Source: Bacilli bacterium
GTDB lineage: Bacteria; Bacillota_I; Bacilli_A; RFN20; CAG-826
NCBI GenBank assembly: GCA_017479485.1
Contig: JAFVCC010000012.1
Coordinates: 1 to 32,114, forward strand
Reading direction: 5' to 3'
DNA: 32,114 bases
Position numbers and translations under genes: made by a program. Below are positions 10,312-15,952 of this stretch, piece after piece. How positions within the stretch are numbered: position 1 is the first letter of the stretch; each line of letters starts with the position of its first letter. The notes beneath the pieces were generated by a model. That model did no database searches, was not told where the DNA came from, and saw only the letters and a list, made by a program, of their open reading frames with translations.

Positions 10312-11013
10312 TTATAAGGATTTGTTTTCCTCTACGAAAGGCAGCAAGGAGATTTCGAGATTCCCGTTTTTGGTACGGAGTTCATCGATGAGTTCCTTCT
10401 GCTCGCGGTCGTCTTTCATCACGATGCGATAGGAGAGGCAGAACATGGAGCCCATATTCGTTGTCTTGACTCCGACGAGGTCGTGCTCGCTGGCGTAATG
10501 GGCAAAGGTTTGGTCGAAGACTTCGGAATAATCTAAGGACTCAGGAATCGTGACTTTCAGGAGGTGTTCCTTGCTGAAATGGCGGTGGGTGAAGATCGGT
10601 AGGAAGGTTAAGCCAACATAAGCGAGGGCTAAGGCGATGCCGATGATGAGGCCATAGGCAACGTAGCCGATACCGAATGCGACGCCAACCGCAACGCTTA
10701 GGAAGAGGAAGAGGATTTCCTCGGCTCTTCCGTTAGCGCTTCTAAAGCGAAGCAATCCAAACGCGACCGCTAAGGTGAGAAGCCGCGCCGTAGTGGTTAA
10801 AGAACTCGCCAGGAAATATTCCATCAAGACGAAGACGAGGGCGATGACCGCGGGCATCAACGCGCCGGTGATGAAGAGGCCTTTGCTTGCGCGGAGGCGG
10901 AAGCTGCAGATCCATGAGACGAGTAGTCCGGTGAGCAAGGCTCCGGCGACGCAGAGGAAGGTGCCCCAAATGCTCATTGAGCTAGCGAATACTGAATCGA
11001 AGATGGTGTCCAT
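10312..11013 (-). CDS. DUF4956 family membrane protein
   Basis: The 233-residue protein has an N-terminal membrane part with about five or six segments (residues 13-150, including LLTGLLVSWICSF, GALMPAVIALVFVLMEYFLA and ILFLFLSVAVGVAFGIGYVAYG). The cytoplasmic C-terminal domain has a ferredoxin-like look (KVTIPESLDYSEVFDQTF to LEISLLPF). The motif ARLLTLAVAFGLLRFRSANG matches DUF4956 proteins, which are regularly encoded next to VTC-type polyphosphate polymerases. Its role is unknown; polyphosphate transport or coupling is only a guess from gene neighbourhood. The start overlaps the end of the VTC gene by 40 bases, with AAAGGA before the ATG. Confidence 0.85.
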   Translation of the reverse strand: MDTIFDSVFASSMSIWGTFLCVAGALLTGLLVSWICSFRLRASKGLFITGALMPAVIALVFVLMEYFLASSLTTTARLLTLAVAFGLLRFRSANGRAEEILFLFLSVAVGVAFGIGYVAYGLIIGIALALAYVGLTFLPIFTHRHFSKEHLLKVTIPESLDYSEVFDQTFAHYASEHDLVGVKTTNMGSMFCLSYRIVMKDDREQKELIDELRTKNGNLEISLLPFVEENKSL

Positions 11014-11732
11014 AATTTCATGATCCTTTCTGAATTGATGACGTTGGCTTGGGATTTATAGGCCTCTCCATATTTGGAGAATGAGGCGCGGTAGATTTTT
11101 CCTTTATCGAGGATGTGGGTGAGCCACAAGGGCATCGCGAGCTGTACTTTGATTTCCAGGATGCTGCTTCCTTCGGGCAGGAGCGAGGTTCCCTCCATCG
11201 AGGTTTTGAGGTCGAGCCCATCGATGCGGTAGCGGGGGTTGCCATCGATCGTCAGCCGGAGGTCACCGCCAGGCTCGAAGTAGGCGACGCGGTCATAGAT
11301 GATGAGGCAAGCGGGAACGAGGGTCCCATAGAAGTCGCGGAAGTAGCGAATCTCTCTCGCGATTTGGCCGTTGGCAGGGATGTCCCCATCCCCATCGAGG
11401 AAGCGCTCGACGACCGGGATGGTCGAGGTGACGCGCCGCTTATAGACGATGCGGTCATACTTCCGTTTGAGTTCAAGGAAAACGGGAGAATCGTCCGTCG
11501 CTAACCCATACGAGCGCAGGCGAATCTTTTCTTTAAACGGTGGTTTTTCAATGGAGGCGCGAATGAGGCGGTAGTCGGGGGTGTCGTAGTAGAGCGAGGC
11601 GATGGAGGTGAGACCGTATTGGTCCACTTCCATGTGGCCAACGAGTTCCTTTTCCAAGAAGGCTCGCTGCTCGGCGGTGAGAATGTATTTGAGTTCATAC
11701 CGCTTCATGACAGAAATCGCAGGTGTGGGCAT
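10974..11732 (-). CDS. VTC-domain polyphosphate polymerase
   Basis: VTC domains polymerise polyphosphate from ATP in a tunnel lined with basic residues. The 252-residue protein is a free VTC domain. It shows VMKRYELKYILTAEQ at the start, SLYYDTPDYRLIRASIEKP, FKEKIRLRSYG, FLELKRKYDRIVYKRRV, and the late ILEIKVQLAMPLWLTHIL with YRASFSKYGEAYKS. The alternating Lys/Arg/Glu residues of those strands are the known nucleotide and chain contacts. AAGGAGGG lies at good spacing before this ATG. It is followed by DUF4956 with overlap and preceded by the two-component genes. A TTTAAG-N5-TTTAAG repeat just upstream suggests control by that regulator. Confidence 0.9.
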   Translation of the reverse strand: MPTPAISVMKRYELKYILTAEQRAFLEKELVGHMEVDQYGLTSIASLYYDTPDYRLIRASIEKPPFKEKIRLRSYGLATDDSPVFLELKRKYDRIVYKRRVTSTIPVVERFLDGDGDIPANGQIAREIRYFRDFYGTLVPACLIIYDRVAYFEPGGDLRLTIDGNPRYRIDGLDLKTSMEGTSLLPEGSSILEIKVQLAMPLWLTHILDKGKIYRASFSKYGEAYKSQANVINSERIMKLWTPSSIQYSLAQ

Positions 11733-11771
11733 GGTTCTACCCTCCTTTCGAATTCTATTGTGGGACCTCTT

Positions 11772-11788
11772 CTTAAAGAGAACTTAAA
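11772..11788 (-). promoter_or_regulatory. Direct-repeat operator before the VTC gene
   Basis: On the minus strand TTTAAG occurs twice with five bases between (11-base period). A TAGAAT, possible -10, follows about 14 bases later. The same repeat precedes the response regulator gene. Direct repeats of 11-base period next to the -10 are typical for OmpR/PhoB-type activators. Confidence 0.6.
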
Positions 11789-11797
11789 GAAACGGGA

Positions 11798-13018
11798 TTA
11801 AAGTTCGGCTTTGATAATAAATTTGCCTTCGACGCATTTGGCCATGATGCGGCCGCGATGGTTCGCGACGATTTCCTTGGCGATACTTAGCCCAATACCC
11901 GAGCCTTCGATGCCCGAAGCGCGAGCGACATCGGAACGGTAGAAGCGGTCGAAAACTTGGTCGAGGCTCCCTTCTTCTAATCCTTCGGCGTCGTTGATGA
12001 CTTTGATCATCGTGCGGCCTTCATTGCGGTAGAGGTGGAACTCGGCAGTGGTCAAAGAATACTTCAGAGCGTTATCTAAGAAGATGGAAATCAGTTTTGA
12101 AAGGGCGTTCCCATCACCTTTTATTTTTAAATTTGGAGGCAGTTCTGCGGAGAAATTGATGCCTTTTGCTTCAAATGCATCATGAAAGGAAGTAACGACG
12201 TCGCTGGCGATGGCGGAAATATCCACTTCCCCCATAGCCTGAGTTTCTTGTTCTTCCATGCGGGCTAGGGCGTTGAGGTTCTTGACCATCGCGGTAAGGC
12301 GCGAAACCTGCTTGGAGATGGCGACGGTCTGCTCGGATTCGCCGTGGACCGCTTCCATGATTTCGTTATTGGCCGAGATGATGGTGATCGGGGTCTTTAG
12401 CTCGTGAGAGGCATCCGAGATAAAGCGTTGCTGCTTACGGGTTGAGACCACAAGAGGTTTGACGAGGATTTTGGATACGGGAATCAGGAGGAAGAACGAG
12501 ATGAGGATGCCTGCGGCCGAACCGATGATTGAGCCCCATAAGACGCGGTAAGAAGGTGAAAGCTCACGGTTATAGTCGATGACGCTGACGTAGGTCGCGC
12601 CTTCGTAGTTATAGGAACGGAAGCGGTAGTAGGTGCGGGTCCAACCTTTGCTTTGGCTTTTTAAGGAAGCGCCCCAGGAGAGCGCTTCATTGATATCGAC
12701 GGTGAAACTCGTCATATGGAACGCGACCATAGAAGCGGTGCCGTCAGAATCGATTTTGACGGTGAAATAACGCGCGGACATCCGCATTTCGGGCCCATCG
12801 GGACGCATAGGCATGCCGCCTTCCCCGGGTTCTCCCTCGGGCTTTCCGGGATCTTTGAAATTGCCACCGGCATCTGCGAGAGCCTGGGTAAGGGAGTCCG
12901 CATCGGTAGCGACCATGGTGAAGTTGGTGATGTTGATGGCGCCTAAAATGAGCAAAAGCAGCAAGCCGATGGATAACGTTGCGTAGGCGATAAACTTTTT
13001 GCGGAAACGCTCGATCAT
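11798..13018 (-). CDS. Sensor histidine kinase
   Basis: This is a membrane sensor that autophosphorylates and passes phosphate to the partner regulator. From the ATG at 13018 the protein is 406 residues. The order is TM1 (about 9-28), an extracellular region (about 30-157) with a Pro/Gly/Glu/Met-rich insert near residues 57-80, TM2 (about 158-180), then the HisKA domain with H205 in SDASHELKTPI, the N box FLDNALKYS (313-321), NDAEGL (342-347), FDRFYR and GSGIGLSIAKEI. No PAS or clear HAMP domain is evident. The longer frame to 13120 is rejected because ATG 13018 forms an ATGA overlap with the regulator stop. The downstream genes suggest it governs polyphosphate synthesis; the signal is unknown. 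Confidence 0.93.
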   Translation of the reverse strand: MIERFRKKFIAYATLSIGLLLLLILGAINITNFTMVATDADSLTQALADAGGNFKDPGKPEGEPGEGGMPMRPDGPEMRMSARYFTVKIDSDGTASMVAFHMTSFTVDINEALSWGASLKSQSKGWTRTYYRFRSYNYEGATYVSVIDYNRELSPSYRVLWGSIIGSAAGILISFFLLIPVSKILVKPLVVSTRKQQRFISDASHELKTPITIISANNEIMEAVHGESEQTVAISKQVSRLTAMVKNLNALARMEEQETQAMGEVDISAIASDVVTSFHDAFEAKGINFSAELPPNLKIKGDGNALSKLISIFLDNALKYSLTTAEFHLYRNEGRTMIKVINDAEGLEEGSLDQVFDRFYRSDVARASGIEGSGIGLSIAKEIVANHRGRIMAKCVEGKFIIKAEL

Positions 13019-13683
13019 TTCTTTTCTCCTAATTGGTATCCGACGCCGCGCACGGCGATGATGGTGATGTTCGCGCCGATACTTTGTAACTTCTTCCTTA
13101 AAGCCGAAATATATGCCCAAACGACGTTGATTTCCGCATCGGAATCATAATCCCAAACGGCTTCCATGATGCGTTCGGTAGAGACGAGGCGCGATTTATT
13201 CTGCATGAAAAACTCCATCATTTGGAACTCGGTGCGGGTGAGACGGATGGTCTTTTCGGCGCGGAGCTCATAATTATCGCCATCCAAAGTGACGTTGCCT
13301 AAGGTATACGTCGGGGTTCCCTCTTTACCGCGGCGGAGCAACGCGCGAATGCGAGCTAAAAGTTCTTTGGTTTGGAAGGGCTTCGTGAGGTAATCGTCCG
13401 CGCCAGAATCAAGTCCGAGCACCTTATCGTCGGTCTCGGCTCGGGCGGTCAGCATGATGACGGGGGTCTTATCACCCTCGTTACGGACGAGGCGAAGCAC
13501 CTGAAAGCCATCCATCCGCGGCATCATGACGTCGAGGATGACGCAGTCGTAATGGCTCTCGCGAATCTTTTCTAGGGATTGCATGCCATCGAACGCTTGG
13601 TCGACGGTATAGCCGGACATCTCGAGAATTTTCTTTACGGCGGCGGAGAGATCGCGCTCGTCTTCGCATAGCAATAGTTTCAT
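13015..13683 (-). CDS. OmpR/PhoB-family response regulator
   Basis: This DNA-binding regulator is activated by phosphorylation from the adjacent kinase. The 222-residue protein has a receiver domain with the acidic pair E7/D8, the phosphate-accepting D51 in VILDVMMPRMDG, the switch Thr in VIMLTARAE, and DDYLTKPF. A winged-helix domain follows (about residues 125-220) with LTRTEFQMMEFFMQN, INVVWAYISALRKKL and AVRGVGYQL. AAGGAG precedes the ATG. It leads the operon with the kinase, and a direct repeat upstream, repeated before the VTC gene, points to self-control. Confidence 0.96.
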   Translation of the reverse strand: MKLLLCEDERDLSAAVKKILEMSGYTVDQAFDGMQSLEKIRESHYDCVILDVMMPRMDGFQVLRLVRNEGDKTPVIMLTARAETDDKVLGLDSGADDYLTKPFQTKELLARIRALLRRGKEGTPTYTLGNVTLDGDNYELRAEKTIRLTRTEFQMMEFFMQNKSRLVSTERIMEAVWDYDSDAEINVVWAYISALRKKLQSIGANITIIAVRGVGYQLGEKK

Positions 13684-13718
13684 ACTTCGTCTCCTTCGCC
13701 TTAAGAATGGATGCGTTA

Positions 13719-13735
13719 CTTAAAACCTACTTAAA
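13719..13735 (-). promoter_or_regulatory. Direct-repeat operator before the response regulator gene
   Basis: On the minus strand TTTAAG-N5-TTTAAG occurs 36-52 bases before the regulator ATG, extended as TTTTTAAGTAGG and TTTTAAGTAAC. It matches the repeat at 11772-11788 in sequence and spacing. This makes it the best candidate for the binding site of the encoded regulator. Confidence 0.6.
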
Positions 13736-13825: not shown

Positions 13826-15952
13826 ATGCCGTTTGTTGAGCCGAAGAGTCCGATGATTCCACGGGAAAAGAGCGTCTACTATTGGTTGACGTTCCTCTCT
13901 CTGGTAGGGCTACTTGCCATGGGCGCTTTTTTTAATGAGGGCATCGCGTTTTTCTCCGACCATCCAACGACGTGGATGAATGACGCGGAGTTTTTTATCA
14001 CCTTCGCCGTAACGGTTTTGTCCATTGCCTGCTTCTTGGTTTTGGCGCATCGGAACTTCCATATTGGCTTCCATTGGCCTTTGGCCATACTTTTTGGGCT
14101 CTTATTTATCGGGAATACGATTGGCCTATTCAACTTGCAACTGGTGATCGAACATAGCCCTGACTTCACCGGAGTCCGCTCCCCATACCTTTATACCGTC
14201 AGCGCTATCCCTCATGTGCGCTTCATCGCGAGCTTTGCGATCACGTGTGTCTATCTGTACTTATTTTTCGCCGTTTTGCCGAAAGTGTTTCAAAACGTAC
14301 AAAGATTGTACTTAGTTTGCTATGGCGTGTTGCTCGCCATGGTGGCCGCGATCATCTACTCGTTGATCGCTGAACATGGCCTTTATACTTCCATGTTCAC
14401 CTCTGGTTCGGGCTGGCCGTTACATCATGCCCAATCCTTTACGAATAACCCGAACACCTTTTCTTTCTTTTTCTCTCTCGGCGCGATAGCGGTCGCCTTA
14501 CTCCATAACCGCAAAGCGCGGTGGTGGTGGCTCTTGATCATGTGCTTCATCGCGGCCATCGCCCTGTTCCACGCTTCGGGAACTGGCGCGGTATGCACCT
14601 GCTTCACGTTGCTTGCCTTCTTCACCTATCGTTTCGTTTTGACGGTCCGCTTGCACAAGAAGCGAAACATCATTCTCTATTCGCTTTTCATCGCGGCAAC
14701 GATCGCTTTTAGCGTATTGGTGTTCGTGGATTTCGGCAGCGAAGGCGGATTCCTTCGTAGATTCTATACTTCCGTGCGCGAGAACATTTTGGGCATCAAC
14801 GCGGTCAATAGCCGCGTGGATTTATGGGAAACCATCATCTCCCAGCTGGATAACCCTATGAAGTGGATCTTCGGCCTTGGCGATCAGCAGGTTTATTTCT
14901 ACTTTGGCTATACCTTAGGAACGCGCGGAATCAACGAGATTTTCCATGCGCATAACGGTTTTCTCCACCAGGTTTATGCTGGCGGCATCCTCCGCTTAAC
15001 GCTTTATGTTGTGTTGATCATCCGTTTCTACGTGATGTGCGCGAAAAGGTTCAACCATCGTTCGCGCTTAGCCTGGCCTTGCGCGATCGGGATGACCTCG
15101 GTGTTGATTCGCAGTTTGTTTGAAACGAATTCCTTCTTAGCTTTAGACACCATCTCCGTCGTGACGTTCTTGTTGCTTATTCTGCCGATCGAAGTGGAGC
15201 ATAACTTATTGAAACATCCGGAACGGATCGACGAGGAAGCAGCGGTGCTTGTGGCGTCTATAGAAGGAAAACCGCGCTTCCGTCAGGGTGGCAAGCAGTG
15301 GGGCACGTTCTGCTTCCTCTTCATCACTCCTATCGTCTCCATTGCGTTAGGCGCGATGCCCATCTATTCCGCGATGGGCTACTTAGCAGATTATCTTGTT
15401 TGGCCTTATTACGTCTTATGGATTGAGTTCGAGTTGCTCTTCCCGCTTCTATGCTATGGTCTAGGCAGCTTAGAAGGAAAAAAGAGAGCCGTCATCGGCG
15501 GCACGTTTATCGCGTTATTCCTTGCCTCTTTCGCCCTTGGCTTAGCGTTCATTACTCTGGCTCCTTGGGTTTCTTATGCCGCGTTAATCATCCTTTTCGC
15601 CCTCACGTGCATCGCGTTTGCCTTGGCTCATAAATGTGCCTTCAAAGCATTTGGGCAATTCGTCTTTGGCATCGCGTTACCGTTCTTTGCGGTGGCGGGG
15701 ATATTGATCATGCTTAGCTCGGTCGGGTATTTCATTCCCACCGACTTCCAGTCCATCTATAACCCCATCATGCTGTCCTTTGGCATCGTCGTGAGCTATT
15801 TCTTAATCATGTACCTTCCCTTCATGGACTGCTTGACTAAGCCCATCAATGAGCGCTGGGCGGTATTCGAATGTCAATGTGAAGCTCGGCTGATTTTGAA
15901 GCAGCTTGACGAGGACGCCATCGAATCGCTGCGCATGGGCTACCATTCCTAA
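13826..15952 (+). CDS. O-antigen ligase/polymerase-like polytopic membrane protein
   Basis: The 708-residue membrane protein has well over a dozen hydrophobic segments. The first ~460 residues resemble the Wzy/O-antigen ligase family. They contain FTNNPNTFSFFFSLGAIA, a long loop with NSRVDLWETIISQL, GLGDQQ, and FHAHNGFLHQVYAGGI, which matches the H-NxxL...GxxG signature of the periplasmic active-site loop. About 200 further residues form an unusual extension with six or so extra membrane segments and a soluble tail. Such proteins join or polymerise lipid-linked glycans; the substrate is unknown, and no glycosyltransferase genes are nearby. There is no ribosome site; TAAACT sits six bases before the ATG, so a leaderless message is possible. 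An ATG at 13853 is an alternative start. It is divergent from the two-component genes. Confidence 0.75.
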   Translation: MPFVEPKSPMIPREKSVYYWLTFLSLVGLLAMGAFFNEGIAFFSDHPTTWMNDAEFFITFAVTVLSIACFLVLAHRNFHIGFHWPLAILFGLLFIGNTIGLFNLQLVIEHSPDFTGVRSPYLYTVSAIPHVRFIASFAITCVYLYLFFAVLPKVFQNVQRLYLVCYGVLLAMVAAIIYSLIAEHGLYTSMFTSGSGWPLHHAQSFTNNPNTFSFFFSLGAIAVALLHNRKARWWWLLIMCFIAAIALFHASGTGAVCTCFTLLAFFTYRFVLTVRLHKKRNIILYSLFIAATIAFSVLVFVDFGSEGGFLRRFYTSVRENILGINAVNSRVDLWETIISQLDNPMKWIFGLGDQQVYFYFGYTLGTRGINEIFHAHNGFLHQVYAGGILRLTLYVVLIIRFYVMCAKRFNHRSRLAWPCAIGMTSVLIRSLFETNSFLALDTISVVTFLLLILPIEVEHNLLKHPERIDEEAAVLVASIEGKPRFRQGGKQWGTFCFLFITPIVSIALGAMPIYSAMGYLADYLVWPYYVLWIEFELLFPLLCYGLGSLEGKKRAVIGGTFIALFLASFALGLAFITLAPWVSYAALIILFALTCIAFALAHKCAFKAFGQFVFGIALPFFAVAGILIMLSSVGYFIPTDFQSIYNPIMLSFGIVVSYFLIMYLPFMDCLTKPINERWAVFECQCEARLILKQLDEDAIESLRMGYHS

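Follow-up and report, generated by a model that had tools for sequence, protein, structure and literature searches.

Probable CiaR-type operators and VTC genes

The streptococcal response regulator CiaR acts through the operator NTTAAG-N5-TTTAAG (PMC3091779, PMC8317062), and promoter searches in Streptococcus have used TTTAAG-N5-TTTAAG followed by TATAAT at a distance of 10 bp (PMC3091779). CiaR is described as an activator of most of its direct targets, with manLMN as the repressed exception, and CiaRH affects its own expression (PMC8317062). Streptococcal CiaR proteins are 80-99% identical to one another and share the recognition helix VVEVYVSKVRKKL with only V/I changes, while homologues of CiaH are reported only in streptococci (PMC3091779). 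In Bacillus anthracis, the CiaR-like BAS0540 binds TTTAAG-N5-TTTAAG upstream of its own gene in EMSA, and autoregulation was proposed (PMC4938410). Genes for VTC-domain proteins are known from another setting: cotH-PPP(VTC)-DUF4956-DUF4832 occur as accessory genes beside Gram-positive pel clusters (PMC7112168). The Cthe_2159 family consists of beta-helix proteins with binding activity toward cellulose and polygalacturonate (PMC6712302).

A repeated candidate operator at a two-component system and a VTC gene

The window, that is the whole stretch of 32,114 nucleotides that was analysed, derives from a rumen bacterium of the Bacilli. It carries, in the order of transcription on the minus strand, genes for a response regulator (RR), a sensor histidine kinase (HK), a VTC-domain protein and a DUF4956 membrane protein, with the following features.

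13719-13735, minus strand: operator R, TTTAAG-TAGGT-TTTAAG (TTTAAGTAGGTTTTAAG), 35 bp upstream of the regulator ATG
13704..13709, minus strand: -10-like hexamer CATTCT, 9 bp past operator R; weak, 3/6 matches to TATAAT
13015..13683, minus strand: OmpR/PhoB-type RR, 222 aa; Pfam Response_reg and Trans_reg_C
11798..13018, minus strand: HK, about 406 aa; HisKA and HATPase_c
11772-11788, minus strand: operator V, TTTAAG-TTCTC-TTTAAG (TTTAAGTTCTCTTTAAG), in the HK-VTC gap, 39 bp upstream of the VTC ATG
11757..11762, minus strand: -10-like hexamer CACAAT, 9 bp past operator V
10974..11732, minus strand: VTC-domain protein, predicted polyphosphate polymerase (tunnel metalloenzyme), 252 aa; PF09359, E = 3e-38
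10312..11013, minus strand: DUF4956 membrane protein, 233 aa; PF16316; 40-bp overlap with the VTC gene

The first-pass annotation had placed an exact TTTAAG-N5-TTTAAG in front of both the regulator and the VTC gene, in the orientation of transcription and with an 11-base period. This observation is confirmed to the nucleotide, and both copies lie outside every ORF. The HK ATG overlaps the RR stop (ATGA). By a signature-residue check the RR has its phospho-Asp51 and Lys101, and its recognition helix reads VVWAYISALRKKL; the HK has its phospho-His (ISDASHELKTP).

The locus shares with CiaRH the operator sequence, the 11-bp period, a -10 element about 10 bp downstream (9-10 bp here), an OmpR-type regulator composed of a receiver and a winged helix, and feedback on its own operon, which is predicted here. 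In contrast to the streptococcal proteins, only 8 of 13 residues of the recognition helix agree with VVEVYVSKVRKKL, outside the near-invariant range of that helix, and the candidate regulon consists of VTC-DUF4956 and Cthe_2159 genes instead of htrA and csRNAs. The window RR is roughly 40% identical to an approximate CiaR sequence; searched in the class and phylum samples, this sequence matched nothing. The RR thus appears CiaR-like in its operator and likely mechanism, and would not count as a CiaR ortholog by the streptococcal helix criterion. BAS0540-BAS0541 likewise has the same operator sequence before its own regulator gene, but VTC and polyphosphate are unmentioned in the text of that report (PMC4938410). 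The pel accessory set has the VTC-DUF4956 pair in common with the window, whereas the consulted passages of its description report neither a two-component link nor an operator (PMC7112168), and neither pel nor cotH was identified next to the window locus.

Operator R also adjoins a divergent gene for an O-antigen-ligase-like membrane protein (13826-15952; weak Wzy_C match). A role for operator R as the promoter element of this gene was set aside, as the neighbour is kept only in the nearest relatives (G018 and G003) and is no core member.

Genome-wide occurrence and distant Cthe_2159 genes

The source genome (G000) is an assembly of 1.7 Mb in 149 contigs and is 62% complete. It holds three exact copies of the repeat against two of a reversed control pattern, and nine copies with at most one mismatch against 19 of the control; in the window, six matches with at most two mismatches face 2.9 expected, which is no clear excess. 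Over-representation across the genome was accordingly dropped as evidence, the raw counts being not above the reversed control. Location is more telling. From the base composition of the window, 0.19-0.26 exact matches are expected in the whole 1.7-Mb genome, and the probability of one in a given 100-bp upstream stretch is about 6e-6. The intergenic copies, 32-39 bp upstream of start codons, comprise all three exact ones and a single one of the six with one mismatch; they stand in front of four genes: those for the RR, the VTC protein and two lipoproteins with a Cthe_2159 domain (PF14262). The other five one-mismatch copies all fall inside genes. The repeat therefore exceeds chance by location and conservation, with no enrichment in raw count. 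A repeat common outside promoters, which the first-pass annotation had named as grounds for abandoning its proposal, is not what the genome scan returned: copies are few, and every exact one is promoter-proximal.

The two lipoprotein genes are paralogues outside the window, on contig C64 (C64:11009-11025 and C64:2513-2529 for the operator copies; L001, L098, L064; 32-39 bp before the start codon). One has the third exact copy, 39 bp upstream, and the other the one-mismatch copy. Across the genus, a site with at most two mismatches lies about 30-45 bp ahead of 10 of 12 stand-alone Cthe_2159 genes; both of those that lack it belong to genomes without an RR ortholog (G013 and G022). Cthe_2159 genes that directly follow DUF4956 in an operon have a site in 0/5 cases (G025, G040, G006, G016, G011). 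Both groups act as natural controls and favour the operator reading. The regulon would then be wider than the gene pair originally noticed, extending to distant Cthe_2159 lipoprotein genes.

Conservation in related genomes

Genomes of the same genus conserve the site at RR, VTC and Cthe_2159 genes. Upstream of the RR gene it reads TTTAAGTATGTTTTAAG in G018 (L131), at the same distance as in the window, TTTAAGTATTTTTTAGG in G001 and TTTAAGTATTTTTCAAG in G002; upstream of VTC it reads TTTAAGTTCCTTTTAAC in G018 and G002, TTTAAGTTCGTTTTAGG in G001 and TTTAAGAAAACTTTAAG in G006. Within the genus, the RR orthologs that have sites share 54-79% identity with the window RR, while that of G024, which has an exact copy upstream, is 44% identical. 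G040, a member of another family in the same taxonomic order, has exact copies before both RR and VTC. The comparison of relatives that keep the cluster, suggested at the outset, thus finds the repeat conserved before RR, VTC or both. No recognisable site precedes VTC in G003, G004 and G011 despite the presence of the cluster; the HK-VTC gap is short in G003 and G004, and in these three relatives the RR promoter may serve VTC too. VTC and RR also occur together in the genus (11 genomes with both, 12 with neither, 2 discordant; p = 3e-5).

A survey of 80 named loci used the flanking genes as background; the loci come from Bacilli and Clostridia, for the most part ruminant gut or rumen MAGs. A site with at most one mismatch precedes VTC in 14/66 cases and other genes in 0/310 (p = 8e-12, with survey p-values optimistic because the loci are related and their independence is overstated). 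The reversed pattern was found at 1/66 VTC genes and 1/310 others, and the reverse-complement pattern at 1/66 VTC genes.

Within the survey, the operator co-varies with the type of recognition helix in the regulator beside VTC. Where that helix is Trp-type, 9/14 loci show the site at one mismatch or fewer and 13/14 at two or fewer, compared with 0/9 and 1/9 for loci with other regulator types (p = 0.0024 and 1.6e-4, respectively, both again optimistic for related loci). Rarity, conservation and this co-variation together support the tie between a two-component system and a polyphosphate-polymerase gene that the first-pass annotation had proposed, as far as sequence comparison can carry it.

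In G022 an exact repeat also lies 119 bp upstream of a ROK gene, and other genomes have one before an ABC-transporter or a metalloprotease-like gene; in these cases distance or conservation is too weak to add the gene to the regulon. VTC proteins are up to 74-75% identical between the Bacilli genus of the window and rumen Clostridia (L132-L146), which suggests horizontal transfer or mis-binned contigs.

Kinases without the phospho-histidine

The phospho-His is lost from the kinase next to VTC in 16 named loci, as in FIANVESDFKLPLTI of L134 (L134:3686-4966). Almost all of these loci are labelled Clostridia; they are L132, L133, L134, L136, L137, L138, L140, L142, L145, L146, L150, L153, L158, L172, L175 and L179. 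In the tree these kinases group together (support 95/77), nested in a well-supported clade to which the window kinase also belongs. Where a regulator is present in these loci, at least two of its five receiver signature residues are lost, in some cases by Asp to Glu. The ORFs remain long, near full length, and wherever an estimate of dS, itself near saturation, was obtained, dN/dS came to about 0.11-0.21, which points to purifying selection. Exact TTTAAG-N5-TTTAAG precedes the regulator in L134, L140 and L142. This clade of rumen Clostridia suggests control without phosphotransfer.

Promoter layout and proposed regulation

Among 44 distinct sites selected with at most one mismatch, the second-position A and sixth-position T of a TATAAT-like hexamer are most frequent 9-10 bp past the repeat, at 41-43%; other spacers give 0-20%. 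Of these 44 sites, 42 retain the G that ends the first half-site (position 6), and the second half-site drifts more. A promoter scanner returned no sigma-70 promoter in either intergenic gap, upstream of RR or of VTC, a result that fits an activator-dependent promoter but also the lack of any promoter. Some VTC or RR promoters have two TTTAAG dimers 23 bp apart (L012, L014, L015, L134, L148, L206), an arrangement that suggests cooperative binding.

The repeats very probably serve as operators of the RR at 13015-13683, which would activate its own operon, VTC-DUF4956 and the distant Cthe_2159 genes. A head-to-tail dimer of the phosphorylated RR would bind the two TTTAAG half-sites, which are one helical turn (11 bp) apart. 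The downstream half-site would overlap the -35 position, with the -10-like element 9-10 bp further on, and because of this layout the bound RR would most likely recruit RNA polymerase, as streptococcal CiaR does. Expression of the RR-HK operon, the VTC-DUF4956 operon and the distant Cthe_2159 lipoprotein genes would rise as a result, and one regulator probably switches on both itself and a cell-surface/polyphosphate module. The repeat, its location, its conservation, its co-variation with regulator type and the promoter layout are read from the sequence; from them we infer binding, its dependence on phosphorylation and the sign of regulation.

The site could in principle work in the opposite direction, as a repressor site for negative feedback at which the downstream half-site blocks RNA polymerase. 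Its overlap with the -35 position and the precedent of manLMN among CiaR targets (PMC8317062) are compatible with this, but activated CiaR promoters have this very layout (PMC3091779), activation is the rule among direct CiaR targets (PMC8317062), and without an activator these promoters would have no good -35 hexamer, so that repression is unlikely. It is very unlikely that the sites belong to another regulator of the genome with the same recognition sequence, for which the neighbouring two-component system would be just one target. Genomes of this kind do encode several OmpR-type regulators (17 first-look candidates in G000), and the clade with His-less kinases retains exact sites next to a regulator whose helix has diverged. 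Against this, presence of the site goes with the helix type of VTC's neighbouring regulator, and Cthe_2159 genes of regulator-less genomes lack it. That A/T-rich upstream stretches simply yield TTTAAG repeats by chance or composition seems extremely improbable: genome-wide counts are indeed not above the reversed control, but at the same genes the contrast is 14/66 to 0/310, with 1/66 for the reversed pattern, and the site, down to the first half-site G among the sites selected with at most one mismatch, is conserved across diverged genomes.

Activation by the neighbouring RR therefore remains the preferred reading, and its parts differ in novelty. The operator and self-regulation are of a known kind, since sequence and layout equal the CiaR operator, which is also bound by BAS0540. 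Self-activation, which goes beyond self-regulation and had been predicted in the first-pass annotation, is suggested by the operator position. The link to VTC-DUF4956, which that annotation had considered new, holds up as such: no report tying VTC-DUF4956 or Cthe_2159 to a CiaR-type operator was found in the searchable literature, largely outside subscription sources, and the regulon of VTC-DUF4956 and Cthe_2159 is new to that literature.

To our knowledge, the bacterial VTC-DUF4956 pair is widespread and its membrane partner has no known function. Through the shared operator the pair is joined with a two-component system and with exported Cthe_2159 proteins, making the function of VTC-DUF4956 and Cthe_2159 testable via co-regulation. 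Work on the CiaR-type operator has dealt with streptococci and B. anthracis; here it would mark a regulon that extends over uncultured Bacilli and Clostridia of the rumen.

Products of the candidate regulon

The VTC protein matches the structure of yeast Vtc4 (3g3q; E = 1.5e-7). K15, R71, R73, K89, R148, E193, K195 and K220 are invariant in 11 aligned sequences (alignment A1), and most of the invariant Lys/Arg/Glu residues stand opposite Vtc4 tunnel positions. The window protein thus shares with the yeast VTC complex a homologous tunnel domain with conserved catalytic positions, but no SPX domain was found in it and its partner is DUF4956. By homology, it would make polyphosphate.

An AlphaFold2 model of DUF4956 (pLDDT 83, pTM 0.62) has five helices followed by a ferredoxin-like C-terminal domain. 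Compared with the PDB, it gave no significant match; VTC subunits were absent from the top 50, and the weak matches include the MgtC C-terminal domain. A VTC-like channel was rejected for DUF4956, as no solved structure matched significantly.

A surface or envelope role of the regulon is plausible. A joint reading as a surface polyanion module is conceivable but doubtful: VTC would make polyphosphate, DUF4956 would pass or anchor it at the membrane, and the Cthe_2159 lipoprotein, whose family binds acidic polymers like polygalacturonate, would hold or bridge it outside, all under one envelope-sensing two-component system that in one clade of rumen Clostridia would operate without phosphotransfer. 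In G040, an exact repeat with a good layout (G040:C22:135962-135978; L062) lies 36 bp before the gene for a secreted lipoprotein whose HETGH motif resembles that of metalloproteases, a possible lineage-specific member of the regulon.
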